This document shows, in pieces, positions 2,847 through 60,869 of a stretch of 64,000 nt of DNA. The notes below the pieces were generated by a model. The model ran no database searches, had not been told where the DNA came from, and worked only from the letters and a program-made list of their open reading frames with translations. This stretch comes from Neoarius graeffei. Its lineage: Eukaryota > Chordata > Actinopteri > Siluriformes > Ariidae. The DNA is taken from contig NC_083571.1 in assembly GCF_027579695.1 (NCBI RefSeq), positions 88,276,888-88,340,887 on the forward strand, read 5' to 3'. The position numbers and the translations under genes are program-made. Each line of letters starts with the position of its first letter. Within the stretch, counting starts at the first letter, position 1.

Positions 2847-3205
2847 CCCCTCCTAGAACTGCCACCTTATTGTGGTGGAGGGGTTTGTGTGCTTGAATGA
2901 TCCTAGGAGCTATGTTGTCGGGGGCATTACGCCCCTGTTAGGGTGTCCCAAGGCAGACAGGTCCTAGGTGACAGGTTAGACCAAGAGCAGTTCACCAAAA
3001 CCCTTATGGATAATAAAAGATCAAGGACTGTGACATCGCCCGGTATGGTGCAGCCAGGGCCCCACCCTGGAGCCAGGCCCAGGGCTGGGGCTCATATGCG
3101 AGTGCTTGGTGGCCGGGCCTTTGCCCATGGGGCCCGGCCGGGCTCAGCCCGAAGCGGTGACGTGGGCCTGACCTCCTGTGGGTTCACCACCCACAGAGGG
3201 GGCCG

Positions 3206-4720
3206 GTGCAGTGTGGATTGGGCAGCAGTCGAAGGCAGGGGCCTCGACGACCTGATCCCCGAACACAGCGGCTAGCTGTTGGGACATGGAATGTCACTTC
3301 GCTGGGGGGGAAAGAGCCTGAGCTTGTGCGGGAGGTTGAGAGGTACCGGCTAGAGATAGTCGGGCTCACCTCCACGCACAGCTTGGGCTCCAGAACCCAG
3401 CTCCTCAAGAGGGGCTGGACTCTCCACTTCTCTGAAGTCGCCCATGGTGAGCGGTGGCAGGCTGGTGTGGGCTTGCTTATAGCTCCCCAGCTCAGCCGCC
3501 ATGTGTTGGACTTTACCCCAGTGAACGAGAGGGTCGCCTCTTTGCGCCTTCGGATTGGGGAGAAGGCTCTTGCTGTTTTTTGTGCCTACGGGCCGAATAG
3601 CAGTATAGAGTATCCGGCCTTCATGGAGTCCCTGGGAGAGGTACTGAGAGGTGCTCAGACTGGGGACTCCATTGTTCTACTGGGGGACTTCAATGCTCAC
3701 GTGGGCGACGACAGTGACACCTGGAGGGGCGTGATGGGGAGGAATGGCCTCCCCGATCTGAACCCGAGTGGTGTTTTGTTATTGGATTTCTGTGCTAGTC
3801 ACAGTTTATCCATAACGAATACCATGTTTGAGCATAGGGGTGTCCATAAGTGCACGTGGCACCAGGACATCTTAGGTCGGAGGTCGATGATCGACTTTGT
3901 TGTCGTTTCATCTGATCTCCGGCCCTATGTCTTGGACACTCGTGTGAAGAGAGGGGCTGAGCTGTCAACTGATCACCACCTGGTGGTGAGTTGGATCCGC
4001 TGGCGGAGGAGGAAGCCGGAGAGACCTGGCAGGCCCAAACATATGGTGAGGGTCTGCTGGGACCATCTGGCCGAGCACTCTGTCTGGGAGGTCTTTAACT
4101 CCCACATCCGGGAGAGCTTCTCCCAGCTTCCGAGGGAGGTGGGGGACATTGAGTCTGAGTGGACCATGTTCTCTACCTCCATTGTAGACACGGCTGTTTG
4201 GAGCTGTGGCCGCAAGGTCTCTGGTGCCTGTCGTGGCGGCAATCCCCGAACCCGGTGGTGGACACCGGAAGTAAGGGATGCCGTTAAGCTGAAGAAGGAG
4301 TCCTATCTGGCTATGTTGGCCTCTGGGACTCCTGAGGCAGCTGATGGGTATCGGCAGGCCAGGCGTGCCACAGCTCGGGCAGTTGCAGAGGCAAAAACTT
4401 GGAACTGGGAGGAGTTTGGTGAGGCCATGAAGGAGAACTATCAGTCGGCCTCGAAGAAATTCTGGCAAACCATCTGGCGCCTCAGGAGGGGGAAGCAGTA
4501 CTCTGCCAACACTGTTTACAGTGCGGGTGGGGAGCTGTTGACCTTGACTGGGGACATTGTCGGGTGGTGGAAGGAATTCTTTGAGGATCTCCTCAATCCC
4601 ACCATCATGTCTTCCATTGAGGAAGCGGAGGCTGATGACTCAGAGGTGGACTCGTCCATTACCCAAGCCAAAGTCACTGAGGTGGTTTGCAAGCTCCTTG
4701 GTGGCAAGGCACCAGGATGA
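3206..4720 (+). pseudogene. LINE endonuclease and start of reverse transcriptase
   Basis: The 504-residue frame holds an apurinic/apyrimidinic-type endonuclease. Landmarks are [35 protein letters not shown] and STDHHLVV, matching the conserved Asn, Asp, Asp and His positions of the family. The usual QETH-like Glu motif reads LTSTHS, so a metal-binding Glu appears lost. After a linker the frame enters the RT N-terminal part ([11 protein letters not shown]). It stops at 4720 because a few bases appear to be missing, and the RT continues in another frame. Confidence 0.85.
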
Positions 4721-5320
4721 GATCCGCCCTGAGTATCTCAAGTCTCTGGATGTTGTGGGGCTGTCTTGGCTGACACACCTCTGCAACATCGTGTGGCGGT
4801 TGGGGACAGTGCCTCTGGGGTGGCAGACTGGGGTGGTGGTCCCTCTTTTTAAGAAAGGGGACCAGAGAGTGTGCTCCAATTATAGGGGAATCACACTTCT
4901 CAGCCTCCCCAGGAAAGTTTTCTCTAGGGTACTGGAGAGGAGAATTTGGCCAATAGTCGAACCTCGGATCCAGGAGGAACAATGCGGTTTTCATCCTGGT
5001 CATAGAACACTGGACCAGCTCTATATCCTTTATAGGGTGCTCGAGGGGTCATGGGAGTTTGCCCAACCAGTCCACATGAGCTTTGTGGATCTGGAGAAGG
5101 CATTCGACCGTGTCCCTCGTGGTATTCTGGGGGGGTGCTTTGGGAGTATGGGGTTCGGGGCTCTTTGCTAAGGGCTGTCCAGTCCCTGTATGAATGGAGC
5201 AGGAGTCTGGTTCGCATTGCCGGCAGTAAGCCAGACCTGTTCCCAGTGCATGTTGGACTCTGGCAGGGCTGCCCTTTGTCACCGGTTCTGTTCATAATTT
5301 TTATGGACAGAATTTCTAGG
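4720..5320 (+). pseudogene. LINE reverse transcriptase, central part
   Basis: The RT fingers and palm can be read across two frames: FKKGDQRVCSNYRGITLLSL, EEQCGFHPGHRTLDQL, motif A FVDLEKAFDRV, then after a frameshift near 5135 motif B GLWQGCPLSPVLF. The reading stops at MDRISR where the SINE begins at 5321 and resumes at 6963. The enzyme would prime cDNA synthesis at a nicked target. This copy cannot encode it, because of the frameshifts and the insertion. Confidence 0.85.
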
Positions 5321-5559
5321 CGGCGGCACGGTGGTGTAGTGGTTAGCGCTGTCGCCTCACAGCAAGAAGGTCCTGGGTTCGAGCCCCGGGGCTGGCGAGG
5401 GCCTTTCTGTGTGGAGTTTGCATGTTCTCCCCGTGTCTGCGTGGGTTTCCTCCGGGTGCTCCGGTTTCCCCCACAGTCCAAAGACATGCAGGTTAGGTTA
5501 ACTGGTGACTCTAAATTGACCGTAGGTGTGAATGGGAGTGTGAATGGTTGTCTGTCTAT

Positions 5560-6823
5560 TGGCCCTTTTCCACTACCCTTTTTCAGCTCACTTCAGCTCG
5601 CTTCAGCTCACTTCAGCCCGACACGGCTCGCGTTTCGACTACCAAAAACCAGCACGACTCAGCTCGTTTCAGCCCTGCTTAGCCCCTAAAACTCGCACCG
5701 TTTTGGAGTGGGGCTGAAGCGAGCCAAGCCGTGCCGAGTGAGGCTGGGGGCGTGAGCAGACACTCCCCTGTGCACTGATTGGTGAGGAGGCGTGTCCTCA
5801 CATGCCCACACACGCCCCGCGAGCGCGCTGGGATCTGTAAACACCATAAACCCGGAAGAAGAATAATTACGAATTACGAGAATTTCTGAAGCCTTATGCG
5901 CCTCGCCTCATCTATACGCTCTTGCCAGTATCTGTCTGCGTTGTCGGTGACAACAAGCCACAGCACCAAGACCAGCAACACTAACGACTCCATGTCCTCC
6001 ATGTTTATTGTTTACTATCCGGGTCGTGAGACTACCGCTTAAAAGCTCACTGAATCAGTGACATACAGAGCATCGTGGACGAGTTCGCGGAGCGCAAGGC
6101 TCGTCGTATGCCCTTCAAATAATGCGCGCAGTAGGCTATTGATGTTTTATTATGAGCCATGTACAGTATGTCGCCTAATGTTTTTTTGTTTCTGAGTTAC
6201 ATGTTCGTTTGAAGGACTTAATGTACAAAATAACATAGTTGCACCCCGTAGTGTTGAAATTGGTAAACACAGTGCATTCAGTGAGGTTTGCACCGCCCTC
6301 CTTTTATTTCTGACTCTTCCTGTCACCACTCTGAGCGCTCATTCGTATGCCCTTCAAATAATGTGCGCAGTATAGGCTATTGATGTTTTATTATGAGCCA
6401 TGTATACAGTATCCTAATGTTTTTTGTTTCTGAGTTACATGTTCGTTTGAAGGACTTGATGTACTAAATAACATATAGTTGCACCCGGTAGTGTTGAAAT
6501 TGGTAAACACCGCAGTTGCGGACATTTTGTAGCCTAAAATGATGTTATGATAAGCTTTAATAAAGGGCCCGGTCATTTGCCCCGCCCCCGGCCCCGCTCT
6601 GACTTGTTCCGCCACTGTCACTGATGTCACTGTTTGCGCTGCTTAACGACATCACCTGACGTCCACCCACTTTCACTAACTCCACCCAATGTGTCCACCC
6701 ACTTCCAGCCAGCACGGTTCAGCGCGGTTGTAGTCGAAATGCAACTCCAACAGCCCCGCTCAGCTCGACTCAGCTCGACTCGGCACGGCACGGCTCAGCC
6801 GCGTTTGTAGTGGAAAAGCGGCA
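5560..6823 (-). mobile_element. Harbinger-like non-autonomous element, copy A (1264 bp)
   Basis: Terminal repeats are TGGCCCTTTTCCACTAC on the left and the complement of TGCCGCTTTTCCACTAC on the right. A 3-bp TAT lies on each side (5557-5559 and 6824-6826). Subterminal regions are made of short CAGCTCG/CACGGCT-type repeats. The interior contains an imperfect duplication of roughly 170 bp (about 6109-6280 and 6345-6520), which the 34.5-kb copy lacks. A 42-codon transposase-like start is on the minus strand. The 3-bp duplication and the small ORF suggest PIF/Harbinger. Confidence 0.7.
5874..6002 (-). pseudogene. 42-codon ORF of the Harbinger-like element
   Basis: The frame begins MEDMESLVLLVLVLWLV and ends LQKFS followed by TAA. 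The same ORF is found at 34759-34887 in the other copy. A short hydrophobic and acidic start followed by an Arg-rich stretch resembles the N-terminus of fish Harbinger transposases, but the catalytic DDE part is absent. It is probably an exon remnant; identity is inferred. Confidence 0.4.
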
Positions 6824-6962
6824 TATGTGTCAGCCCTGTGATGACCTGGCGACTTGTCCAGGGTGTACCCCGCCTTTCGCCCATAGTCAGCTGGGATAGG
6901 CTCCAGCTTGCCTGCGACCCTGTAGAAGGATAAAGCGGCTAGAGATAATGAGATGAGATGAG

Positions 6963-7829
6963 AATTTCTAGGTGCAGCCAGGGGCCGGAAGGAATCCTGT
7001 TTGGGAACCACAGGATTTCATCTCTCCTGTTTGCGGATGATGTTGTCCTGTTGGCTTCTTCAAACCAGGACCTTCAGCATGCACTGGGGCGGTTTGCAGT
7101 CGAGTGTGAAGCGGCTGGGATGAGAATCAGCACCTCCAAGTCCGAGGCCATGGTTCTCGACCGGAAAAGGGTGGCTTGCCCTCTCCAGGTTGGTGGAGAA
7201 GTCCTGCTTCAAGTGAAGGAGTTTAAGTATCTTGGGATCTTGTTCACGAGTGAGGGAAGGATAGAGCGTGAGATCGACAGGCAGATCGGTGTGGCCTCCG
7301 CAGTGATGCGGTCGCTTTACTGGTCCATCATGGTGAAGAAGGAGCTGAGCCAAAAGGCGAAGCTCTCGATTTACCGGTCGATCTACGTTCCAACTCTCAC
7401 CTATGGTCTTGAGCTTTGGGTAATGACCAAAAGAACAAGATACAAGTGGCCGAAATGAGTTTCCTTCGCAGGGTGGCTGGGTGCTCCCTTTGAGATAGGG
7501 TGAGAAGCACAGTCACTCAGGAGGAGCTCGGAGTAGAGGCGCTGCTCCTCCACATCAAGAGGAATCAGCTGAGGTGGCTTGGGCATCTCTTTCGGATGCC
7601 TCCTGGACGCCTCCTGGGGAGGTGTTCCAGGCATGTCCCCCCGGGAGGAGGCCCCGGGGAAGACCCAGGACACGCTGGAGGGACTATGTCTCTCGGCTGG
7701 CCTGGGAACGCCTCGGTGTTCTTCCCAAGGAGCTGGGCGAGGTGTCTGGGGAAAGGGAAGTTTGGGCTTCCATGCTCAGACTGCTGCCTCCGCGACCTGG
7801 CCCAGGATAAGCGAATGAAGATGAGACAA
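6963..7829 (+). pseudogene. LINE reverse transcriptase C-terminal part, duplication unit 1
   Basis: The sequence continues RT from the SINE junction: CSQGPEGILFG, motif C SLLFADDVVLLAS, the thumb (EFKYLGILFTSEGR, IDRQIGVASAVMRSLY), then frameshifts and a C-terminal LRWLGHLFRMPPGR and GRPRTRWRDYVSRL region. It ends in a GATAAGCGAATGAAGATGAG tail before the target duplication. The same stretch is repeated apparently unchanged 1603 bp downstream. Confidence 0.85.
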
Positions 7830-7842
7830 GATAACCCAAATA

Positions 7843-7890
7843 ACTTACAGCCATTAACACCTAATCATTTACTGCAAAAAAAGTGTGCAC
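7843..7890 (+). pseudogene. BEL/Pao integrase fragment, 3' part (unit 1)
   Basis: It reads NLQPLTPNHLL, continuing the fragment that breaks at 2846. A second copy lies at 9446-9493 within the duplication. Confidence 0.7.
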
Positions 7891-8189
7891 TATTCTTTTT
7901 TTGTTTGTTTGCTTGCTTTTTTAACAGTGGTTTGCTTCAGTAGCCAACCTAAACTCTATCTTTACTGAGCTCCAAAATAAAACCATATTTTTTTAATACA
8001 ACTGACCTGAAAAGAAAGAAATACAACCCCATTTCCAGAAAAGTTGGAATATTTTTCAAAATGGAATAAAAAAAAACTGTGATTTGTTAATTTGTATGAA
8101 ACTTTATTTAACTGACAAAAGTACAAAGAATAGATTTTCAATAGTTTTACTCACCAACTTAATTGTATTTTGTAAATATAAACAAAGTT

Positions 8190-8565
8190 GGGCGGCACAG
8201 TGGTGTAGTGGTTAGCACTGTCGCCTCACAGCAAGAAGGTCCGGGTTCGAGCCCCGTGGCTGGCGAGGGCCTTTCTGTGTGGAGTTTGCATGTTCTCCCA
8301 GTGTCTGCGTGGGTTTCCTCTGGGTGCGCCGGTTTCCCCCACAGTCCAAAGACATGCAGGTTAGGTTAACTGGTGACTCTAAATTGACCGTAGGTGTGAA
8401 TGTGAGTGTGAATGGTTGTCTGTGTCTATGTGTCAGCCCTGTGATGACCTGGCGACTTGTCCAGGGTGTACCCCGCCTTTCGCCCATAGTCAGCTGGGAT
8501 AGGCTCCAGCTTGCCTGCGACCCTGTAGAAGGATAAAGCGGCTAGAGATAATGAGATGAGATGAG
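8190..8565 (+). mobile_element. Hybrid SINE (copy 2)
   Basis: The head half matches the SINE at 9793 and the tail half matches the SINE at 5321 (shared CGCCCATAG and GTAGAAGGAT). The flanks do not match each other: AAACAAAGTT on the left, AATTTCTAGG on the right. This is the expected product of recombination between two different SINE insertions. Confidence 0.92.
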
Positions 8566-10029
8566 AATTTCTAGGTGCAGCCAGGGGCCGGAAGGAATCC
8601 TGTTTGGGAACCACAGGATTTCATCTCTCCTGTTTGCGGATGATGTTGTCCTGTTGGCTTCTTCAAACCAGGACCTTCAGCATGCACTGGGGCGGTTTGC
8701 AGTCGAGTGTGAAGCGGCTGGGATGAGAATCAGCACCTCCAAGTCCGAGGCCATGGTTCTCGACCGGAAAAGGGTGGCTTGCCCTCTCCAGGTTGGTGGA
8801 GAAGTCCTGCTTCAAGTGAAGGAGTTTAAGTATCTTGGGATCTTGTTCACGAGTGAGGGAAGGATAGAGCGTGAGATCGACAGGCAGATCGGTGTGGCCT
8901 CCGCAGTGATGCGGTCGCTTTACTGGTCCATCATGGTGAAGAAGGAGCTGAGCCAAAAGGCGAAGCTCTCGATTTACCGGTCGATCTACGTTCCAACTCT
9001 CACCTATGGTCTTGAGCTTTGGGTAATGACCAAAAGAACAAGATACAAGTGGCCGAAATGAGTTTCCTTCGCAGGGTGGCTGGGTGCTCCCTTTGAGATA
9101 GGGTGAGAAGCACAGTCACTCAGGAGGAGCTCGGAGTAGAGGCGCTGCTCCTCCACATCAAGAGGAATCAGCTGAGGTGGCTTGGGCATCTCTTTCGGAT
9201 GCCTCCTGGACGCCTCCTGGGGAGGTGTTCCAGGCATGTCCCCCCGGGAGGAGGCCCCGGGGAAGACCCAGGACACGCTGGAGGGACTATGTCTCTCGGC
9301 TGGCCTGGGAACGCCTCGGTGTTCTTCCCAAGGAGCTGGGCGAGGTGTCTGGGGAAAGGGAAGTTTGGGCTTCCATGCTCAGACTGCTGCCTCCGCGACC
9401 TGGCCCAGGATAAGCGAATGAAGATGAGACAAGATAACCCAAATAACTTACAGCCATTAACACCTAATCATTTACTGCAAAAAAAGTGTGCACTATTCTT
9501 TTTTTGTTTGTTTGCTTGCTTTTTTAACAGTGGTTTGCTTCAGTAGCCAACCTAAACTCTATCTTTACTGAGCTCCAAAATAAAACCATATTTTTTTAAT
9601 ACAACTGACCTGAAAAGAAAGAAATACAACCCCATTTCCAGAAAAGTTGGAATATTTTTCAAAATGGAATAAAAAAAAACTGTGATTTGTTAATTTGTAT
9701 GAAACTTTATTTAACTGACAAAAGTACAAAGAATAGATTTTCAATAGTTTTACTCACCAACTTAATTGTATTTTGTAAATATAAACAAAGTTGGGCGGCA
9801 CAGTGGTGTAGTGGTTAGCACTGTCGCCTCACAGCAAGAAGGTCCGGGTTCGAGCCCCGTGGCTGGCGAGGGCCTTTCTGTGTGGAGTTTGCATGTTCTC
9901 CCAGTGTCTGCGTGGGTTTCCTCTGGGTGCGCCGGTTTCCCCCACAGTCCAAAGACATGCAGGTTAGGTTAACTGGTGACTCTAAATTGACCGTAGGTGT
10001 GAATGTGAGTGTGAATGGTTGTCTGTGTC
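8427..10029 (+). repeat. 1603-bp tandem duplication, unit 2
   Basis: This is the second direct unit. Differences from unit 1 appear only past its ends: Harbinger sequence to the left of unit 1, and a different SINE tail to the right of unit 2. Confidence 0.95.
8566..9432 (+). pseudogene. LINE reverse transcriptase C-terminal part, duplication unit 2
   Basis: Identical in translation to 6963-7829, including motif C LLFADDVVLL and the same stops and frameshifts. It was carried here by the tandem duplication rather than by retrotransposition. Confidence 0.9.
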
Positions 10030-10167
10030 TATGTGTCAGCCCTGTGATGACCTGGCGACTTGTCCAGGGTGTACCCCGCCTTTCACCCGTAGTCAGCTGG
10101 GATAGGCTCCAGCTTGCCTGCGACCCTGTAGGACAGGATAAAGCGGCTAGAGATAATGAGATGAGAT
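9793..10167 (+). mobile_element. tRNA-derived SINE (copy 3)
   Basis: A full-length copy with matching flanks AAACAAAGTT (9783-9792) and AAGCAAAGTT (10168-10177). Its tail carries CACCCGTAG and GTAGGACAGG, which distinguish it from copies 1 and 2. Confidence 0.92.
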
Positions 10168-10290
10168 AAGCAAAGTTAGAATTCCATGCCTGCAACACAC
10201 TCAAAAAAAAAAACAGGGACAGAGGCAAAATAAGACTGAAACGTTCATAGGATATTCAAGTAGCACCAGTAATTTGGAAGATTCCACAAT

Positions 10291-10501
10291 CTTCTTCTTC
10301 TTCGTTCAGCTGTGCCTGTTCGGGGTCACCACAGCAGATCTGTTCTGAAAATTTGATTTAGCATAGGTTTAACACCAGATGCCCTTCCTGACGCAACCCT
10401 CCCCGATCTATCCGGGCTTGGGACTGGCACTAAGTAGGCACTGGCTTGTGCAACCCCCAGTGGCTGGGTATTTTTACCTAATCTAATCTTTGAAAGATTG
10501 A
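10291..10501 (+). mobile_element. Short CTTCTTC-headed retroposon with 14-bp target duplication
   Basis: It is flanked by GAAGATTCCACAAT at 10277-10290 and 10502-10515. The body contains GATGCCCTTCCTGACGCAAC and ends in a TAATCT-rich tail. A related copy begins at about 41407. The family name is not recognised with certainty. Confidence 0.75.
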
Positions 10502-10544
10502 GAAGATTCCACAATAAGCAGGTTAATTGCTATCATGATTGGGT

Positions 10545-10850
10545 ATAAAAGGAGCATGTTCCAGAGGCTCAGTTTTTGCAAGCAAAGATGGGTTGCAGAT
10601 CATGCCTTTGTGGCAAAATTTGTGAGAGGACTGTTAGTCAATTCAAAAATAACATTTCTCAATTCAATATTTTAGATCTTTCAATATCTACAGTACATAA
10701 TACTGTGAAAAGATTCAGGGAATTCTGAGACATCTCAGTGTGTAAAGGGCAAGGTTGGAAATCACTGCTGAATATGCATGACATTTGAGCCCTCAGGTGG
10801 CACTGCCTGAGAAACCGTCATGCTAATGTGACAAATATAGCCACGTGAGC
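10545..10850 (+). pseudogene. Tc1 transposase N-terminal remnant (copy D)
   Basis: The DNA resembles the start of the other Tc1 copies (GGGTATAAAAGGAGCATGTT, then the helix-turn-helix region). It is broken by stops and is cut at 10856 by the hAT-like element; the rest resumes at 13069. Confidence 0.55.
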
Positions 10851-13805: not shown

Positions 13806-14016
13806 GGTTCCAACTTTTTTTGAGTGTGTTCCAGGCATCAAATTCTAACTTCATTTATATTTATAAAATGCAGTTAAGTTGGTCAGTAAAACTATTGAGA
13901 ATCTTTTTTTTGTACTTTTGTCAGTTACATAAAGGGTCACATGAATTAACAAATCACATATTTTTGTTTTAATTGCATTTTGGAAATATCCCAACTTTTC
14001 TGGAAATGGGGTTGTA

Positions 14017-14425
14017 TACTTTTAGTCATATTCACATGCCAATCCATATACAGTATTCAGTGTCTCACACATACCACACACTGCGCATAAGGCAGCATAT
14101 CTCTGCTGTTTTTTTTAAATGATCATTTTTTACATTTTAAGTCTCTCTTAAATTAACATTTCTTAACTTTTATTAAAGATTAATAAAATCTTCCCAGAAA
14201 ATCACACAAGCATTATAATCAGATGCTGCTTAAAGAACCCCATTTTGACTAGCATCCGCACCCAGCTTCAAAGTAGATGCTGATAGTATGTCCAGCAAAC
14301 CCCAAACCAAATAAATCAGTTAAGATATTATTAAGTTGCTATTGCTGTCAAAACAAGAGATTGCTTACTTTGGCTAAGACATTGATGTTTTAAAAGACAG
14401 ATCCATTATTTATTCACTCACATTC
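14017..14425. other. AT-rich interval with no recognised feature
   Basis: I see no ORF of note and no clear repeat ends between the Tc1 relic and the SINE. Confidence 0.4.
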
Positions 14426-16659: not shown

Positions 16660-18670
16660 CTTATGCCAAACTCAGAAGCTGAAGGAGAACAGCATGAGGG
16701 AGGTCTGGGAAGGTGGGAAGGTGTGAAAACCATCACAGGCCACAATACAAAGACCAGAGTCGTTGAGGGGACAGTGGAGAGGGTGAATGGGTTGAATGAC
16801 TTCTTTAATCGGTTTAACCAGCCCATGTCCCCCCCCACCCTCTCCCTCACTGCAGCCATCTCTCCTTCTTCCCTCAACACACCTCCCCCCAGTCATCACA
16901 GCAGCCCCCTCCTCCCCCACCTCAACACAGACTCCTCTATGCATTACTGCAAACCAGGTCAGAGGTCAACTGAGGAAGCTTCACCCCAGGAAAGCATCAG
17001 GCCTGGACAAGGTGTGTCCACGACTACTGCGCTGCTGAACTGGGTGAACCACTCCAACACATCTTCAACCTCAGCCTGCAGCTGGGGAGAGTGCCAACCC
17101 TCTGGAAGACATCATGTATCATTCCAGTTCCCAAAAAGAATCGGCCCAGCGAGCTGAACGACTTCCGACCAGTGGCACTCACTTCACAGCCGATGAAGAC
17201 GTTGGAGCGGCTCTTCCTCAGCCTCCTCAGACCCCAGGTACAACATGCCCAGGACTGTCTGCAGTTTGCGTACCAGGCAGGTGTTGGTGTGGAAGACGCC
17301 ATCCTCTACCTGCTACACCGAGCCCACTCGCATCTGGATAAGGGAAATGGCACAGTGAGGATCTTCTTCTTGGACTTCTCGAGTGCCTTCAACACCATCC
17401 AGCCCCTATTGCTTCAGGACAAACTGAACAGGATGCGAGTGGACCCCTGCCTGGTCACCTGGATCTCCAGCTACCTCACTGACAGGCCACAGTACGTCAG
17501 GCTGAAGGACATCACGTCTGACACTGTAATTAGCAGCACCGGAGCACCCCAGGGCATGGTGCTGGCCCTCTTCTCTTCACCCTGTACACCGCAGACTTCT
17601 GCTACAATTCAGAGCTGTGTCACATTCAGAAGTTTTCCGATGACACAGCCATCGTTGGGTGTATCAGTGACGACAGAAAGGAGGCGTATAGGAGCCTGGT
17701 GATGGACTTTGCTGTGTGGTACAACAGGAACCATCTGCAGCTCAACACCTCGAAGACCAAGGAGCTGGTCACTGACTTTAGGAGGTCCAGACCAAGGTCA
17801 CGACCAGTTCTGATCGAGGGAGTCGAGGTGGAGGCTGTGGATTCCTACAAGTACCTCGGGCTGTGGCTGGACAGCAAGCTGGACTGAACTTGCAACACCA
17901 ATCACTTATACAGGAAGGGACAGAGCAGGCTATACTTCCTTAGGAGGCTGCGGTCCTTTAACATCTGCAGGAAACTCCTGTGGATGTTCTATCAGTCTGT
18001 GGTCGCCAGTGTCCTGTTTTACACTGTGGTGTGCTGGGGGGGCAGCACATCCAAGAAGGACACATCCAGGCTGGACAAACTGATCAGGCGGGCTGGCTCT
18101 GTGGTCGGCATGAAGCTGGACTCTCTGGTGATGGTGGCAGAGAAGAGGTCTATGGACAAACTATTGAACATCATGGACAATGCCAGTCACCCTCTGCACA
18201 CCGTCATCAGCAACCAGAGGAGCCTGTTCAGTGACAGAATGCTCCTTCCCAAGTGCAGGACGAACAGACTCAAAAGCTCCTTTGTCCTTCACACCATCAG
18301 ACTGTACAACTCCTCTCTGGGGGGGATGGGAGGGGTAACAGGAGGACAGAGGACGGGAAGGAGCAGTAGGCTAGCCTAACAATAAGCAATACCAGACAAT
18401 GTGCAATATAATGTGCAATATTAAGTGCAATATCTTTCCTTCTTCCCCCCCCCACTCACACACACTTACCCTAACCCCACTTTCCCCCCTCCCCTTCCTC
18501 TCTTCCCTATATCTTATTTTTTTATATTTGTATATGCAAATACTTAATTTATTTTAATTTATCTAGAAGTTTTCTCTATTTCTTTTCTCTGTTTATCTGT
18601 AATGATGCTGCTGGAATCTTAATTTCCTTGAGGGAACCCTCCCAAAGGGATCAGTAAAGTTTTGTCTAAT
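16660..18670 (+). mobile_element. CR1/L2/Rex1-type LINE, 5' truncated and defective
   Basis: Reverse transcriptase and C-terminal sequence run left to right, followed by an untranslated tail containing TTCCTTGAGGGAACCCTCCC and a TCTAATC-like end. No endonuclease is present, consistent with 5' truncation. A SINE is inserted in the tail. Confidence 0.85.
16760..18376 (+). pseudogene. CR1/L2/Rex1-type reverse transcriptase
   Basis: The reading shifts frame several times: LNDFFNRFNQP, QVRGQLRKLHPRKASGLDK, VPKKNRPSELNDFRPVALTS, motif A FFLDFSSAFNTI, motif B STGAPQGMVL. After a frameshift near 17570 comes motif C FSDDTAIVG, then NHLQLNTSKTKELVTDFRRS. At 17885 a TGA replaces an expected Trp codon (SKLD, stop). 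The frame then continues through YFLRRLRSFNICRKLL and VCWGGSTSKKD to 18376. The catalytic Asp residues are present, but the protein cannot be made. Confidence 0.85.
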
Positions 18671-23201: not shown

Positions 23202-23581
23202 CATCTCATTCATCTCATTATCTCTAGCCGCTTTATCCTGTTCTACAGGGTCGCAGGCAAGCTGGAGCCTATCCCAGCTGACTACGGGCGAAAGGCGGGG
23301 TACACCCTGGACAAGTTGCCAGGTCATCACAGGGCTGACACATAGACACAGACAACCATTCACACTCACATTCACACCTACGGTCAATTTAGAGTCACCA
23401 ATTAACTTAACCTGCATGTCTTTGGACTGTGGGGGAAACCGGAGCACCCTGAGGAAACCCACACGGACACGGGGAGAACATGCAAACTCCACACAGAAAG
23501 GCCCTCGCCGGCCCCGGGGCTCGAACCCAGGACCTTCTTGCTGTGAGGCGACAGCGCTAACCACTACACCACCGTGCCGCC
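23202..23581 (-). mobile_element. tRNA-derived SINE (copy 8) in the left Tc1 repeat
   Basis: Target duplication ACCTATAACCT at 23191-23201 and 23582-23592. Confidence 0.95.
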
Positions 23582-23813: not shown

Positions 23814-24786
23814 TTGCATCCTCCAGCAAAAGCCAGGGTTCGCAGAGAGCTTACAAAGCATCAAAGGGATCTCATTGTTGAAAGGTATCAGTCAGGAGAA
23901 GGGTACAAAAACATTTCCACAGCATTAGATATACCATGGAGCACAGTGAAGACAGTCATCAAGAAGTGGAGAAAATATGGGACAACAGTGACATTACCGA
24001 GAACTGGACGTCCCTCCAAAATTGATGAAAAGACAAGACAAAAACTGGTCAGGGAGGCTGCCAAGAGGCCTACAGCAACACTGAAGGAGCTGCAGGAATT
24101 TCTGGCAAGTACTGGTTGTGTACTACATGTGACAACAATCTCCTGTATTCTCCATGTGTCTGGACTATGAGGTAGGGTCAAAGAAAAACATCCAGGCCCG
24201 GCTAAATTTTGAAAAAAAAAAAAAAAAATCAATTCTCCCAAAAGCATATGGGGAAAATGTGTTATGGTCTGATGAAACCAAGGTTGAACTTTTTGGCCAC
24301 AATTCCAAAAGGTATGTTTGGCGCAAAAACACCACTGCGCATCACCAAAAGAACACCATACCCACGGTGAAGCACGGTGGTGGCAGCATCATGTTTTGGG
24401 GTCATTTTTCTTCAGCTGGAACAGGGGCTTTAGTCCAGGTGGACGGAATTATGAACAGTTCTAAATACCAGTCAGTTTTGGCCCAAAACCTTCAGGTGTC
24501 TGCTAGAAATCTGAAGATGAATTTCATCTTTCAGCATGACAATGACCCCAAAAAAGTTTTGGAATGGCCCAGCCAGAGCCCAGACCTAAATCCAATTGAA
24601 AATCTGCGGGGTGACCTGAAGACGGCTGTGCACAAGAGATGCCCTCACAATCTGACAGATTTGGAGCACTTTTCCAAGGAAGAGTGGGCAAATATTGCCA
24701 AGTCTAGATGTGGCAGGCTGATAGACTCCGACCCAAAAATACTGAATGCTGTAATTAAATCAAAAGGTGCTTCAACAAAGTATTAG
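23814..24786 (+). pseudogene. Tc1 transposase (copy E), broken
   Basis: The N-terminal frame (23814-24170) has the paired-like DNA-binding region LTKHQRDLIVERYQSG, TVKTVIKKWRKYGTT and the GRPSK motif. It ends at a TGA. A poly-A stretch near 24212 marks a frame change. The catalytic frame then reads NVLWSDETKVELFG, FQHDNDPK and SPDLNPIENL, so the three acidic positions are retained. A block of about 15 residues between HDNDPK and KVLEWPSQ is missing. It cannot produce active enzyme. Confidence 0.85.
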
Positions 24787-24900: not shown

Positions 24901-25248
24901 GGCTGCACGGTGGTGTAGTGGTTAGCGCTGTCGCCTCACAGCGAGAAGGTCCGGGTTCGAGCCCCGTGGCCAGCGAGGGCCTTTCTGTGCGGAGTTTGCA
25001 TGTTCTCCCCGTGTGGGTTTCCTCCGGTTTCCCCCACAGTCCAAAGACATGCAGGTTAGGTTAACTGGTGACTGTAGGTGTGAATGTGAGTGTGAATGGT
25101 TGTCTGTGTCTATGTGTCAGCCCTGTGATGACCTGGCGACTTGTCCAGGGTGTACCCCGCCTTTCACCCGTGGTCAGCTGGGATAGGCTCCAGCTTGCCT
25201 GCAACCCTGTAGAACAGGATAAAGCGGCTAGAGATAATGAGATGAGAT
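24901..25248 (+). mobile_element. tRNA-derived SINE (copy 9) in the right Tc1 repeat
   Basis: Its head joins GGTTATAGGTC, the mirror of the site used by copy 8. The outer side is deleted, so no second duplication is seen. It has internal deletions in the body. Confidence 0.85.
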
Positions 25249-26370: not shown

Positions 26371-26480
26371 TGTGATTATTATTATTATTATTATTATTAT
26401 TAGTTCAGGTGGTATGTCTGCAGTAGAATTCTTCTTCTTCCTCTTCTTAGTTCAGGTGGTATGTCTGCAGTAGCATTATT

Positions 26481-26857
26481 ATCTCATCTTATCTCATTAT
26501 CTCTAGCCGCTTTATCCTTCTACAGGGTCGCAGGCAAGCTGGAGCCTATCCCAGCTGACTACGGGCGAAAGGCGGGGTACACCCTGGACAAGTCGCCAGG
26601 TCATCACAGGGCTGACACATAGACACAGACAACCATTCACACTCCCATTCACACCTACAGTCAATTTAGAGTCACCAGTTAACCTAACCTGCATGTCTTT
26701 GGACTGTGGGGGAAACCGGAGCACCCAGAGGAAACCCACGCGGACACGGGGAGAACATGCAAACTCCGCACAGAAAGGCCCTCGCCGGCCACGGGGCTCG
26801 AACCCGGACCTTCTTGCTGTGAGGCGACAGCGCTAACCACTACACCACCGCGCCGCC
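26481..26857 (-). mobile_element. tRNA-derived SINE (copy 10)
   Basis: Reversed, with flanks AGCATTATT on both sides. Its head points towards copy 11. Confidence 0.9.
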
Positions 26858-26884
26858 AGCATTATTATTATTATTATTATTATT

Positions 26885-27260
26885 GGGCGGCACGGTGGTG
26901 TAGTGGTTAGCACTGTCGCCTCACAGCAAGAAGGTCCGGGTTCGAGCCCCGTGGCTGGCGAGGGCCTTTCTGTGCGGAGTTTGCATGTTCTCCCCGTGTC
27001 CGCGTGGGTTTCCTCCGGGTGCTCTGGTTTCCCCCACAGTCCAAAGACATGCAGGTTAGGTTAACTGGTGACTCTAAATTGACCGTAGGTGTGAATGGGA
27101 GTGTGAATGATTGTCTGTGTCTATGTGTCAGCCCTGTGATGACCTGGCGACTTGTCCAGGGTGTACCCCGCCTTTCGCCCGTAGTCAGCTGGGATAGGCT
27201 CCAGCTTGCCTGCGACCCTGTAGAAGGATAAAGCGGCTAGAGATAATGAGATGAGATGAG
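26885..27260 (+). mobile_element. tRNA-derived SINE (copy 11)
   Basis: Forward copy, 27 bp from the head of copy 10. It is flanked by ATTATT triplets. Confidence 0.9.
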
Positions 27261-27578
27261 ATTATTATTATTATTATTATTAGTTCAGGTGGTATGTCTG
27301 CAGTAGAATGCTTCTTCTTCTTCTTCTTCTTATTATTATTATTATTATTAGTTCAGGTGGTATGTCTGCAGTAGAATTCTTCTTCTTCTTCTTCTTCTTC
27401 TTCTTGTTATTAGGTCAGGTGGTATGTCTGCAGTAGAATTTTCTTCCCCTTCTTATTATTATTAGTTCAGATGGTATGTCTTCAGTAGAAATAAACACAT
27501 TTTTGCTTTAATGATCCAGTGCACACAGCCTTGAGCGACCTAAAGGAAAGGATCTACACTTTTGAAATGAAACTCTTA

Positions 27579-28317: not shown

Positions 28318-28480
28318 ACTGCGCTCTGAGGGCAGAGCTTAGTCATTTCACCGGGCGCAAGCAAGGAGGAACAGCACCAGTGTGAAACAAAGCCGAGTAG
28401 TGGTTATTTACGCGTTAGGACTGTTTGATTGATTGGTTGGTTTGTTTATTATATAGCTATTAGTATTTGATCGCTTTGGA

Positions 28481-28853
28481 ATGAGCGGAGTCTTTCTGAA
28501 GTTGCTCCACGCGGTGGTACTTGGCGCAGTCCTCTCGGCGCCACAGCTCCGCGCATCCCCGCTCCTGGAGCAGCCGATCCGGTGTGCGCAGTGCACCGCA
28601 GAGCGCGAGGCTGAGTGTCCGCCAGTGGATGCTGGTTGTGCGGAGGTGCTCCGGGAGTCGGGATGCGGCTGCTGTCTGACGTGCGCACTTAAGCGCGGGG
28701 ACCTGTGCGGCATCTATACAGCGCCGTGCGGTTCTGGGCTGCGCTGTTTGCCCACACCTGGAGAGCTGCGGCCGCTGTTTGCGCTCACACGAGGGCAAGC
28801 CGTGTGCACTGAGATCGGGGAGGACGTGCAGAGCCGCACGCAGCCGGCGCCAG
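28481..28853 (+). CDS. igfbp1: igfbp1 exon 1 (coding)
   Basis: Signal peptide plus the complete 12-Cys N-terminal domain. The exon ends after the first base of the Asp125 codon at CAG|GTAGGC. An RGD tripeptide occurs at residues 72-74. Confidence 0.95.
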
Positions 28854-30550
28854 GTAGGCAGCCTGTCCTATAAAATCCTTCTCACGAGCTTTAGAGCTCG
28901 GTTACTAAGCACGGATAAGAAGATGCTTGTGTCTGTGCACGTCGCTGAATAACCTGGAGTATTTTCTTTATTTGCCTCATCGAACAACTCTTTCGCTTTT
29001 CTCCTCCAGATAAGCCCGAGGTGGAGGCTGGCGCTCGGACCGAGGTTTCTGCAGCCGCTTCACCGATCGTCGTGTCGGTCCACATCAAACCCTACGACCC
29101 CTGGCTCCTCAGCGGCGTTCAGGACAGCATGAAGTCCAAAGTGAACACCTACCGAAGGAAACTTGTTGAGCAGGTCGGTACATGACACAGAAACTTTAAA
29201 ATAATGCTTGGATTCTCTCATTCAAAACACGATCCTTGTGTAAAAAAATCAACCGGGGACACTTCGTGGCGTGTTGGTAACCTTTCCAACCACTAGAGGG
29301 CAGGATAACACTTAAAAATCAGAGTTGAAGCACACGTTTGTAAGCTTGTCCTGTGTATGACATTAGGATGAGTCTTCAGGGATCTTGCTGAGTGATAGTG
29401 TATGACATCATCTCTGATAATACAGCAAAGCCAAATATAATAGCATATCATGAAATCCCGCTTATCCTGTTCTACAGGGTCGCAGGCAAGCTGGAGCCTA
29501 TCCCAGCTGACTATGGGTGAGAGGCGGGGTACACCGTGGACAAGTTGCCAGATTATCACAGGGCTGACACATAGAGACAAACAACCGGTCACACTCACAT
29601 TCACACCTATGGTCAATTTAGAGCCACCAATTAGCCTAACCTGCATGTCTTTGCACTGTGGGGGAAACCGGAGCACCCGGAGGAAACCTATGCAGACACT
29701 GGGAGAACATGCAAACTCCACACAGAAAGGCCCTCGCCAGCCTCGAACCCAGGACCTTCTTGCTGTGAGGCCACCAAAAATCATACTCGTGAAAGTTATA
29801 ATCCAAAGCGTACAGTAACAGTATGTGCCTTTCTGTCGATGTGCTAATCTAACCTTTGTAATATTTTATATGAATTAAATGGGGGTGGATAGTTCCAAGT
29901 GTGTGTGTGTGCAGTGTGAGATGCTTAACAGAGCTGACAGCAAATAACAACATTGATAATAAAATAATCCCCTCCCTCCCTCCCTTTTTTTTGGTCGTCT
30001 CAGGGCCCCTGCCATGTGGAGTTACAGAGAGCTCTTGAGAAGATTGCTCGATCCCAACAGAAGCTGGAAGAGAAGCTGACCAAGTTCTATCTGCCTAACT
30101 GTGATAGATCAGGCCTGTACAAAGCCAAACAGGTAAACAAAAAGCATAGTGGTTATTCACGATTATTCCGGGTGTAACAGTAATATACCTAAACCTTTAA
30201 CAACTTCACTAGAACACACAAATAACTGTGTGTTTGTGAAGTCTCAAATTCAGGTGTCAAACTGAGGTCAAACAGGAACCTTACACACACATAGTTAAGA
30301 CTGATGTAATTGCTTTTGGTGTCACACAACACAATGCTGCTCATGTACTGACTTGATATTAGATCCACACTCGATACTGTCGGAGTCAGAATCTGTACAA
30401 ACACACTTTCTTGTCTTTCTGCAGTGCGAATCGTCTCTGGATGGCCAGAGGGGGAAATGCTGGTGTGTGATGTCGTGGAATGGAAAAAAGATTGTGGGAT
30501 CCAGTGAACTACCCACAGATGCTGAGTGCCCTCAGGAGCTCAATCACTGA
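28481..30550 (+). CDS. igfbp1: Insulin-like growth factor-binding protein 1
   Basis: Joining 28481-28853, 29010-29173, 30004-30132 and 30425-30550 gives 263 residues, close to other vertebrate IGFBP-1 proteins. All introns are GT-AG and the phases (1, 0, 0) agree. A signal peptide covers about residues 1-25. The IGF-binding domain has 12 Cys (35-109) with GCGCCLTC at 61-68. The linker is short, and a thyroglobulin type-1 domain with CWCV at 234-237 completes six C-terminal Cys. The secreted protein binds IGF-1 and IGF-2 and restrains their signalling. GELRPLFALTRGQAVC points to IGFBP-1 rather than IGFBP-2, and the neighbour being igfbp3 supports this. The 1a/1b paralogue assignment is not decided. 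Confidence 0.95.
29010..29173 (+). CDS. igfbp1: igfbp1 exon 2
   Basis: Encodes the linker (residues 125-179), ending in NTYRRKLVEQ. The acceptor is CTCCTCCAG and the donor is CAG|GTCGGT. Confidence 0.93.
29452..29774 (-). mobile_element. SINE (copy 13) in igfbp1 intron 2
   Basis: A reversed, older copy lacking the usual tail repeat and part of the head. It accounts for much of the 830-bp intron. Confidence 0.85.
30004..30132 (+). CDS. igfbp1: igfbp1 exon 3
   Basis: Residues 180-222. It starts GPCHVELQRALEKIA, the conserved beginning of the thyroglobulin domain, and includes LPNCDRSGLYKAKQ. The length is a multiple of three. Confidence 0.95.
30425..30550 (+). CDS. igfbp1: igfbp1 exon 4 (coding part)
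   Basis: Residues 223-263, with KCWCVMSWNGKKI and a last Cys before TGA. The C-terminal RGD of human IGFBP-1 is replaced by LPTDAEC. Confidence 0.95.
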   Translation, partial: CESSLDGQRGKCWCVMSWNGKKIVGSSELPTDAECPQELNH

Positions 30551-34498: not shown

Positions 34499-35201
34499 TG
34501 CCGCTTTTCCACTACCAACGCGGCTGAGTTGGGCTGAGCCGTGCCATGCTGAGTTGGGCTGAGTCGAGCTGAGTGGGGCTGTTGGAGTTGCATTTCGACT
34601 ACAACCGCGCTGAACCGTGCTGGCTGGAAGTGGGTGGACACATTGGGTGGAGTTAGCGAAAGTGGGTGGACGTCACGTGATGTCGTTAGGCGGTGCAAAC
34701 AGTGACATCAGTGATCTTTTAAGCGGTAGTCTCACGACCCAGATAGTAAACAATAAACATGGAGGACATGGAGTCGTTAGTGTTGCTGGTCTTGGTGCTG
34801 TGGCTTGTTGTCACTGACAACGCCAACAGATACCAGCAAGAGCGTATAGATGAGGCGAGGCGCATAAGGCTTCAGAAATTCTCGTAATTCGTAATTCTTC
34901 TTCTTCCGGGTTTACGGTGTTTACAGATCCCAGCGTGCTCGCGGGGCGTGTGTGGGCATGTGAGGACACTCCTCCTCACCAATCAGTGCACAGGGGAGTG
35001 TCTCCTCACGCCCCTAGCCCCACTCGGCTCGGTTTGGCTCGCTTCAGCCCCACTCCAAAACCGTGCGAGTTTTGGGTGCTGAGCAGGGCTGAAGCAAGCG
35101 GAGTCGTGCTGCTCTAAGGCAGTCGAAACGCGAGCCGTGTCGGGCTGAAGTGAGCTGAAGCGAGCTGAAGTGAGCTGAAAAAGGGTAGTGGAAAAGGGCC
35201 A
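34499..35201 (+). mobile_element. Harbinger-like non-autonomous element, copy B (703 bp)
   Basis: Ends TGCCGCTTTTCCACTAC and the complement of TGGCCCTTTTCCACTAC. The left flank is TAT and the right is GAT. It is inserted at the same SINE position as copy A but in the opposite orientation, and lacks copy A's internal duplication. Confidence 0.72.
34759..34887 (+). pseudogene. 42-codon ORF of Harbinger-like copy B
   Basis: The same product as 5874-6002 (start MEDMESLVLL, end LQKFS). Conservation of the frame between copies suggests recent common descent rather than selection. Confidence 0.4.
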
Positions 35202-35392
35202 GATGTGTCAGCCCTGTGACAATCTGGTGACTTGTCCAGGGTGTACCCTGCCTCTCACCCATAGTCAGCTGGTATAGGCTCCAGCTTGCTCGAGACACTG
35301 AACAGAATAAGCGGCTACAGATAATGGATGGATGAATGAATAAGAAAATAAATAAATGAAATATTTGCATTCTGTGTGTGGTTCTACATGTC

Positions 35393-48840: not shown

Positions 48841-50908
48841 AATAAAGAAAGTTTTCACCTTAGCTTGCTGAAATCTTAGTTTATTACTTGTGCAGTCAAC
48901 TACAACCCCGATTCCAAAAAAGTTGGGACAAAGTACAAATTGTAAATAAAAATGGAATGCAATAATTTACAAATCTCAAAAACTGATATTGTATTCACAA
49001 TAGAACATAGACAACATATCAAATGTTGAAAGTGAGACATTTTGAAATTTCATGCCAAATATTGGCTCATTTGAAATTTCATGACAGCAACACATATCAG
49101 AAAAGTTGGGACAGGGGCAATAAGAGGCTGGAAAAGTTAAAGGCACAGAAAAGGAACAGCTGGAGGACCAAATTGCAACTCATTAGGTCAATTGGCAATA
49201 GGTCATTAACATGACTGGGTATAAAAAGAGCATCTTGGAGTGGCAGCGGCTCTCAGAAGTAAAGCTGGGAAGAGGATCACCAATCCCCCTAATTCTGCGC
49301 CGACAAATAGTGGAGCAATATCAGAAAGGAGTTTGACAGTGTAAAATTGCAAAGAGTTTGAACATATCATCATCTACAGTGCATAATATCATCAAAAGAT
49401 TCAGAGAATCTGGAAGAATCTCTGTGCGTAAGGGTCAAGGCCGGAAAACCATACTGGGTGCCCGTGATCTTCGGGCCCTTAGACGGCACTGCATCACATA
49501 CAGGCATGCTTCTGTATTGGAAATCACAAAATGGGCTCAGGAATATTTCCAGAAAACATTATCTGTGAACACAATTCACCGTGCCATCCGCCGTTGCCAG
49601 CTAAAACTCTATAGTTCAAAGAAGAAGCCGTATCTAAACATGATCCAGAAGCGCAGACGTCTTCTCTGGGCCAAGGCTCATTTAAAATGGACTGTGGCAA
49701 AGTGGAAAACTGTTCTGTGGTCAGATGAATCAAAATTTGAAGTTCTTTATGGAAATGAGGGACACCGTGTCATTCGGACTAAAGAGGAGAAGGACGACCC
49801 AAGTTGTTATCAGCGCTCAGTTCAGAAGCCTGCATCTCTGATGGTATGGGGTTGCATTAGTGCGTGTGGCATGGGCAGCTTACACATCTGGAAAGACACC
49901 ATCAATGCTGAAAGGTATATCCAGGTTCTAGAGCAACATATGCTCCCATCCAGACGACGTCTCTTTCAGGGAAGACCTTGTATTTTCCAACATGACAATG
50001 CCAAACCACATACTGCATCAATTACAGCATCATGGCTGTGTAGAAGAAGGGTCAGGGTACTGAACTGGCCAGCCTGCAGTCCAGATCTTTCACCCATAGA
50101 AAACATTTGGCGCATCATAAAACGGAAGATACGACAAAAAAAGACCTAAGACAGTTGAGCAACTAGAATCCTACATTAGACAAGAATGGGTTAACATTCC
50201 TATCCCTAAACTTGAGCAACTTGTCTCCTCAGTCCCCAGACGTTTACAGACTGTTGTAAAGAGAAGAGGGGATGTCTCACAGTGGTAAACATAGCCTTGT
50301 CCCAACTTTTTTGAGATGTGTTGTTGTCATGAAATTTAAAATCACCTAATTTTTCTCTTTAAATGATACATTTTCTCAGTTTAAACATTTGATATGTCAT
50401 CTATGTTCTATTCTGAATAAAATATGGAATTTTGAAACTTCCACATCATTGCATTCCGTTTTTATTTACAATTTGTACTTTGTCCCAACTTTTTTGGAAT
50501 TGGGGTTGTATAAAAGGCCTGGCTAGGTATGTTTATCCATCACACAGGATAAACACAAAGATCATTAATGGTAAAGATACAGATAAAAATGAAGGATTAG
50601 ACCATAATTCATGCAATTAATTGCTAATAGTGGGGCTGTTGTATGATAATCATTCCCATATCCAAGAAAACCTGAATTCTCCATGGTGGAGAGGCTGTAG
50701 CATATACTAGTGATGGAAGTAGGTGGTTATCACCTACAGCATGGAAAGACACTGCGGTCTCGTTGGAGTCCATAAGCCGAGACCCAGTCTCCGACCAAGA
50801 CCCACTAATGAGACCCAGATCTAGACCAAGGCTACGTTTATGTGGTCTCAAGAGCCAGCTACTCTCCAACTCAGCCTGGTAATTTTAACAAATTGTGCAC
50901 ATACCCTG

Positions 50909-59157: not shown

Positions 59158-60027
59158 GATGTTGTCCCCGATGTGTGTCTGTCTAGGTGAGCTCTCGAGC
59201 AGATCAACAGGAGAGTGTCATTCACAAACACGCGCACGCACGCACGCGCACACAGTGCAGTGATCTCCGCTCCACTCTAAAAATACGTGCACGCGGCGTT
59301 TTTAACGATCGGGTTGGAGTGGCCAAACTTTAGCGCGCGCGCACCCTGTGTACACGCAGACAGCGCGGCTTCTCCCTCCCGAACACACACACACACCAGC
59401 ATAGAGGGCTCGCTGTAGCGCTCGGCCTCGGACGTGAGAGAACAACGGTGCCAGTGTGGAGCTGTGAAACGGAGGCTGCAGCGAGGGACTGACTGCACTA
59501 TCGGCCAGCCATGTGGTGCACAGGAGTCACTGAAGTAGAGCCACTGTGATATGGAGAGCAAATCTTGGCTATAGCGTTCAGAATAAATAAATCATCTCTG
59601 TTTGTTTCCATGCATGCGATCACAAAGCGTTCCTCTGCAGCCCCCAATACAACCAACCCTAAGAGCTGGGTTATAGCCCGGGGCCAAATAACTGCATTCA
59701 TCACAGGAGAGTAAACTGGGAACCCAGGAACACTGATGAACAACCAATCAGGTTTAATCATAGGGTGGCAAAGACTGCTCTCAGAGGCGGTACCATTTAT
59801 GCTTCATTAGGACATCAGGACATTAGCACAAGAGTGCGTTTGCACAGTATTTGACTTTGCATTTCTTCCTTTGTGCACAATGAATGAATGAATGAACAGG
59901 TTAATTAGTATTGGATTGATGTTTGGACTCAGTAGATTTGGTTACCATATGATTTAATAAATATAAGAATAACAGATGATGCTAGAGCACTAGTGAGTTT
60001 GGGTGGCAGCTTGTGCATCTGAAAAAA

Positions 60028-60075
<48 letters not shown>

Positions 60076-60624: not shown

Positions 60625-60640
60625 GATCTCGTGCACGCGG

Positions 60641-60680
60641 GTTGGGTTGGGTTGGGATGGGATGGGATGGGATGGGATGA
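60641..60680. repeat. GGGTT/GGGAT pentanucleotide repeat in igfbp3 5' UTR
   Basis: Eight or so pentamers directly upstream of the start codon; the transcribed strand is C-rich. Confidence 0.85.
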
Positions 60681-60869
60681 ATGGGGAGGCGACGCTGGAA
60701 CGGTGATCGGTAGGTTATATGGAAATGCTGTAGCCCTCACAAGCCGCTAAATGTCGCGGGGCAGAACCGGGGATGAGCGGGATGTCGCGTCGGGTTTGAC
60801 TCGAGCGTAGAACCCGGCTGAGCAGCGAGGTCTCTCCATCTGTAAGTGTGATTTGCTGGAAACTTCAGG

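Follow-up and report, generated by a model that had tools for sequence, protein, structure and literature searches.

How does a stretch of transposon debris come to stand twice in a row without a single difference, and with a short interspersed nuclear element (SINE) at the joint that matches one neighbor in its first part and another neighbor in its last? This question is raised by a locus in the catfish Neoarius graeffei. We analyzed 64,000 nucleotides of its genome (NCBI RefSeq assembly GCF_027579695.1, contig NC_083571.1, positions 88,276,888 to 88,340,887 of the forward strand), referred to below as the window. Three SINE copies lie in one orientation at this locus: A at 5322-6962, split by an insert that we call M, B at 8191-8565, and C at 9794-10170. 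The sequence between A and C is duplicated, and a homology-directed exchange between these two SINEs, whether by crossover or by template switching, is probably how this came about.

A 1603-bp unit is present twice

Direct self-comparison yielded an exact match of 1658 bp at an offset of 1603; positions 6824-8481 equal positions 8427-10084 with 0 mismatches. Because the match exceeds the offset by 55 bp, the overlap sets the interval in which the sequence switches from one SINE to the other. The whole consists of two 1603-bp units plus 55 bp that can be assigned to neither:

6824..8426, + strand, unit 1 of the tandem duplication; exact match to 8427-10029, its phase free within 55 bp
8427..10029, + strand, unit 2 of the tandem duplication
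8427..8481, + strand, switch interval of 55 bp in which A = B = C

The original prediction, made from the same letters, had described a 1603-bp unit repeated once, with a switch between about 8427 and 8482; its coordinates and lengths hold, the switch falls at 8427-8481, and we confirm the duplication as it was described. It had also pointed to identical translations of the two copies. These are indeed identical, as the DNA is, but they carry no extra information, the frames being debris of a broken non-long-terminal-repeat (non-LTR) element.

The two ends of the match differ in kind. On the right, G at 8482 faces A at 10085 and A at 8486 faces G at 10089, two substitutions within 5 bp; these are followed by 42 identical bases and then by a substitution and a 2-bp indel at 8529-8530. 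On the left, the match ends abruptly because the 1264-bp insert M (5560-6823) lies inside SINE A at that point. We read positions 4801-10800 directly. The window is composed of A, C, G, and T only, so that no gap or N of the sort seen in false duplications lies between the copies.

Besides the SINE parts, the identity spans about 1.2 kb of non-SINE sequence. This span, together with a median pairwise divergence of 4.8% among the SINE copies of the window (15 complete copies, gaps left out), rules out a chance likeness. Comparing the window with itself, we found 64 pairs that include, on each side, 40 or more bases outside SINEs; the unit pair, at 99.7% with its SINE ends included, is the only one of these above 99%, and the other 63 reach at most 97.6%. 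There is no third copy of the unit in the window, as a blastn search with 6973-7835 returned 2 places only. Tandem Repeats Finder was uninformative on the unit because its longest period is 500.

The middle SINE has the head of C and the tail of A

The parents A and C are in direct orientation, both on the + strand, as determined by blastn of C against the window and by alignment:

5322..5559, + strand, SINE A head; 7/233 mismatches to the head of B and C, gaps left out
6824..6962, + strand, tail of SINE A, without a difference from that of SINE B
8191..8565, + strand, SINE B, the hybrid at the junction, with the head of C and the tail of A
9794..10170, + strand, SINE C, from blastn and alignment

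In the head, A and C differ at eight columns (8199-8403), and B agrees with C at every one of them. In the tail, they differ at six columns (8482-8563), three of them adjacent and possibly a single change, and here B agrees with A each time. All 14 informative columns switch sides at one point, being of the A type from 8482 on. One further head difference, seen by eye, is that A lacks a GT just before M; B groups with C in this respect as well. The mismatch counts, with gaps left out, follow the same pattern: the head of B differs from C at 0/233 positions and from A at 7/233, compared to 9/233 for n26b and 9/207 for n24, two other SINEs of the window, while its tail differs from A at 0/139 and from C at 4/139. 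These data bear out the proposal that the middle SINE carries the head of one flanking SINE and the tail of the other.

By eye, TGGTGTAGTGG and GGTTCGAGCCC in the head of these SINEs resemble the A and B boxes of the RNA polymerase III consensus, and the SINEs are V-SINE-like, possibly members of this tRNA-derived family. ARAGORN reported 0 tRNA genes in 5000-10400. In all, 31 SINE pieces make up 8.1 kb of the window.

The target duplications of A and C are exchanged around B

The sequences flanking each SINE provide a second line of evidence:

5311..5320, left target-site duplication of SINE A, AATTTCTAGG
6963..6972, its right counterpart, AATTTCTAGG
9783..9792, left duplication for SINE C, AAACAAAGTT
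10168..10177, its right counterpart, AAGCAAAGTT
8180..8189, left flank of SINE B, AAACAAAGTT, the same as the left duplication of C
8566..8575, right flank of SINE B, AATTTCTAGG, the same as the right duplication of A

The outer SINEs had been said to carry matching duplications where testable; this is so for A, where the duplication is perfect (10/10), but for C the match is imperfect (9/10, AAACAAAGTT against AAGCAAAGTT). As had also been proposed, two different duplications flank the middle SINE. We scored target duplications for 17 SINEs and obtained 12 for A, 9 for C, and 0 for B; matched duplications around B, named beforehand as the finding that would refute the recombination model, were looked for and are absent by this score. 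When flanks are paired across elements, the left flank of B with the right flank of C scores 9 and the left flank of A with the right flank of B scores 12. Twelve of the 14 control SINEs that have both ends score at least 7, two of which (n26b and n34) sit in simple repeats and give little information. Among wrongly paired flanks, from which the A/B and B/C pairs had been excluded beforehand, 6/268 score at least 7.

At 13.8 kb, the host repeat of C has another copy, in which the insertion site is without interruption. There, the blastn hits of the left and right flanks of C end at 13847 and 13851, a 5-bp overlap, and by eye this copy reads through the insertion point of C as ATATAAATGAAGTTAGAATTTGATGCC. 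The automatic alignment misplaced the right flank of C, and the empty site was located from the blastn ends and by eye. A and C look like ordinary insertions, each with its own target site.

The unit is transposon debris

The duplicated interval is made up of pieces of older repeats:

7015..7239, + strand, RVT_1, its C-terminal part in unit 1 (profile 147-203, with 35.9 and 38.1 bits against a cut-off of 29.6)
8021..8189, + strand, piece of another interspersed repeat, host of SINE C; 85% to 13847-14017 on the minus strand

The RVT_1 domain is split around SINE A: it runs up to profile position 139 on the left (to 5320) and begins again from position 147 (from 7015). To the left of A, profile positions 2-87 match with 44.7 bits, above the cut-off of 29.6, and an endonuclease domain lies farther upstream at 3161-4717. 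Two frames are found to the left of A, so the non-LTR element is broken. Although the RVT_1 match bounds only 7015-7239, the debris of this long interspersed nuclear element (LINE) is judged by eye to extend to about 7835. The element is presumably Rex3-like, with Pfam supporting its reverse transcriptase and endonuclease domains. In the unit, we scanned the three + frames of 6971-7836, three stop-free frames, and the six frames of 7836-8190, and there was no Pfam match to a host domain, only to RVT_1. The window has 47 stop-free frames of at least 130 aa; among the ten that were compared to Pfam, the nearest host domain is similar to insulin-like growth factor-binding proteins (IGFBP) and lies at 28457-28870, about 18 kb from the unit. 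We ascribe no effect to the duplication.

Origin of the duplication

These observations suggest an ancestral order in which the left part of the LINE would have been followed by SINE A, the 3' part of the LINE with the host repeat, SINE C, and its flank, both SINEs pointing the same way. SINE C from one chromatid (or from a replication fork that was restarting) would have met SINE A on the other. An exchange within the 55-bp identical tract of the SINE tail would then have joined the head of C to the tail of A. The product would read A - X - B - X - C, where the interval X occurs twice and the hybrid B, with its C head and A tail, lies in between; in the crossover version of this scheme, the reciprocal product would be a deletion. 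This is the simplest account, and it covers all the observations with no additional step. It draws its support from the hybrid composition of B, the swapped target duplications, the exact unit, and the direct orientation of the parents, each of which was tested here. The junction has the features of human rearrangements classed as the homologous recombination (HR) type, namely parents in direct orientation, a homologous junction whose identity equals the overlap, a chimeric SINE, and parental target sites.

Several findings pull the other way. The 55-bp tract falls short of the >100 bp of perfect identity that PMC9675761 gives for classical, RAD51-dependent non-allelic homologous recombination (NAHR) in mammals; the tail homology comes to 102 bp ungapped if two mismatches are allowed. 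If M was already in A, only the tail of about 139 bp could pair without a 1264-bp loop. The tail of B is nearly as close to n21 (1/136) and to n26b and n42 (1/139 each) as it is to A, and for this reason the tail taken by itself is weak evidence. Two of the 14 control SINEs are also without a target duplication (n24 scores 0, n63 scores 3), and the score cut of 7 was picked after the scores were known. In addition, the left RVT_1 match to profile positions 100-139, which is in the other frame, reaches 20.1 bits, below the cut-off of 29.6.

The shortness of the tract bears on the kind of exchange. The original prediction had named non-allelic homologous recombination; the homology-directed exchange between SINEs is supported, but the junction sequence fits template switching as well. 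A switch or annealing from C back to A during replication, similar to microhomology-mediated break-induced replication (MMBIR), is contained in the homology-directed exchange that we favor and is a possible, somewhat less likely form of it. It would suit an identity of 55 bp, which is little for RAD51-dependent NAHR; PMC9675761 regards the majority of human HR-type cases as RAD51-independent; and an insert M already in place beside the switch would make long pairing difficult. The junction is clean, lies at homologous positions, and has no inserted bases, but crossing-over predicts these features equally.

Could B instead have inserted independently and resemble A and C only as a member of their family? 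The SINEs of this window are alike, with their median divergence of 4.8%, and an A-type tail with 1 mismatch is found in n42. However, B has no target duplication, and the identity is unbroken from the tail of A to the head of B, across about 1.2 kb that belongs to no SINE, and likewise from the tail of B to the head of C. The missing duplication and the unbroken identity through non-SINE sequence refute an independent insertion, to which we give practically no credence.

An assembly artefact has a stronger claim. Had a gap-filling or assembly program skipped from SINE C to the SINE A tail, or had the contigs of two haplotypes been joined, the unit would have been written twice, and this misjoin at a shared repeat would yield the same hybrid, the same swapped flanks, and zero divergence. 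False duplications make up 4-16% of three older vertebrate assemblies (PMC9516828), and there are 31 SINE pieces in the present window. Like those cases, the locus presents identical or near-identical sequence twice on one scaffold; here, in contrast, there is no gap or N, and the junction falls exactly at homologous positions of two SINEs. The copies show 0/1658 differences, and one would expect a short-read assembler to merge two identical copies of 1.6 kb in tandem and long reads to reach across the 4.9 kb. Weighing these points, we consider an artefact unlikely. We infer that the exchange between A and C probably took place in the organism and not in the assembly.

The insert M and its possible bearing on the switch

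The left bound of the switch interval coincides with the end of M:

5560..6823, + strand, element M, a DNA-transposon-like insert of 1264 bp that splits SINE A

By eye, the terminal inverted repeats of M are imperfect, and TAT at 5557-5559 and 6824-6826 is a putative target duplication. There is a second, shorter copy at about 34499-35202. The two copies are in opposite orientation and so look like independent insertions; they differ at 28/494 positions in one part, and another part of 215 columns shows 11 mismatches and 10 gaps. Both M copies of the window (2/2, blastn) are inserted at one internal SINE site, CTAT^GTGTCAG by eye, while TAT occurs 1226 times on the + strand. A preference of M for this SINE as a target is possible. 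M also contains an internal direct repeat of about 170 bp (6104-6270 and 6343-6510, 91%, spacing about 240), a region that is absent from the 34.5-kb copy.

The start of the switch interval depends on the order of events. If M came first, the interval starts at the end of M; if M came later, it starts a few bases earlier, because A lacks one GT just before M (by eye). A hand estimate, comparing 55/139 tail bases with about 58/375 bases, weakly favors M before the duplication, by about 2.6-fold.

Age and possible polymorphism

The two units differ at 0/1603 positions, which corresponds to a divergence of at most about 0.19% at 95%, assuming no conversion between the copies. The event thus appears to be recent. 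The earlier description of it as very young is compatible with this bound, but the bound is an upper limit only, and conversion or a false duplication would look alike. For comparison, PMC5524536 gives a diversity of 0.3% and a rate of 2.0e-9 for herring, and PMC9995274 a fish average rate of 5.97e-9. The bound of about 0.19% lies below the herring diversity; the age of the copies may not exceed that of alleles, and the duplication is possibly polymorphic.

A more specific scenario has the duplication segregating as a copy-number variant, some 18 kb upstream of the IGFBP-like exon, after a pre-existing M forced the exchange into the adjoining 55 bp. The divergence between the M copies, set against 0/1603 between the units, leans in this direction, yet we rate the scenario as a long shot. 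If it is true, the locus could serve as a natural experiment on how SINE-SINE exchange is guided by a large heterology.

Comparison with known duplications

The closest parallels are human transposable element-mediated rearrangements (TEMRs). According to PMC9675761, three human genomes contain 493 Alu or LINE-1 events including 33 duplications; the duplications are of about 1.1 kb, and HR-type junctions have a median identity of 17 bp. Most of these junctions do not reach the >100 bp given for classical NAHR, and its authors suggest RAD51-independent annealing. Human Alu-Alu HR-type TEMRs resemble the present case in having two direct SINEs, a homologous junction, one chimeric SINE, a unit of kilobase size, and junction identity of tens of bp. 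In contrast to those cases, the SINE here is putatively of the tRNA type (by eye), in a fish, and not an Alu; the parents are about 97% identical as opposed to about 80% in the discussion of that paper; the junction tract is 55 bp as opposed to a median of 17 bp; and one parent carries a 1264-bp insert beside the switch.

Among fish, the stickleback MYH3C locus (preprint PMC12776057) is also a tandem duplication, interpreted as unequal exchange, whose middle copy is a hybrid between the outer two. Its 17.6-kb gene unit was first duplicated with 4-8 bp of microhomology, later gains arising by exchange between copies; the unit here, in contrast, is gene-free, 1.6 kb long, and would have been exchanged between two flanking SINEs. 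Among the matches listed in our literature search, judged by titles and the starts of abstracts, there was no SINE-SINE tandem duplication in fish, though one may still be in print. Tandem copies in fish are reportedly also the subject of a paper on spiggin (PMC4989455).

Unless it stems from misassembly, the locus is a new instance of a well-known kind of event, and no principle is changed by it. If the exchange between A and C is real, it documents, base by base and outside mammals, a single exchange between SINEs, and the two parent insertions, the hybrid, and an empty site are all readable in one window. A reciprocal deletion allele is predicted in the crossover case, and further copy-number change is predicted because the units are identical.

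Other features of the window

The pair with the next-highest identity after the units is an inverted 1.6-kb pair, 285-1896 and 50511-48900, at 97.6%. It looks like two Tc1-like elements because DDE_3 is matched at 509-1456 on the minus strand and at 49337-50146 on the plus strand; the name Tc1-like is our assumption, and Pfam supports the DDE_3 transposase domains. A further DDE_3 match at 24133-24783 has 28.2 bits, just below the cut-off of 28.6. A Tc1-like element with a DDE_3 match stands between two inverted arms, and the SINEs at 23204-23581 and 24901-25248 sit at the same site in each; they differ at 17/351 positions, the second has no right target duplication, and the adjoining arm sequence is missing. 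At 26475-27268, two head-to-head SINEs form a near-palindrome (796 alignment columns, 96%) within an ATT-rich array with a repeated CAGGTGGTATGTCTGCAGTAG unit.

A stop-free frame at 17888-18376 with a Pfam match to ALKBH8_N lies shortly downstream of an RVT_1 match at 16974-17699, and it probably belongs to a second LINE, as opposed to a repair gene. Finally, the frames with IGFBP domains at 28457-28870 (+) and 59932-60714 (-) face each other, and for both the best PDB match is IGFBP-3; they may be the first exons of a tail-to-tail igfbp pair.

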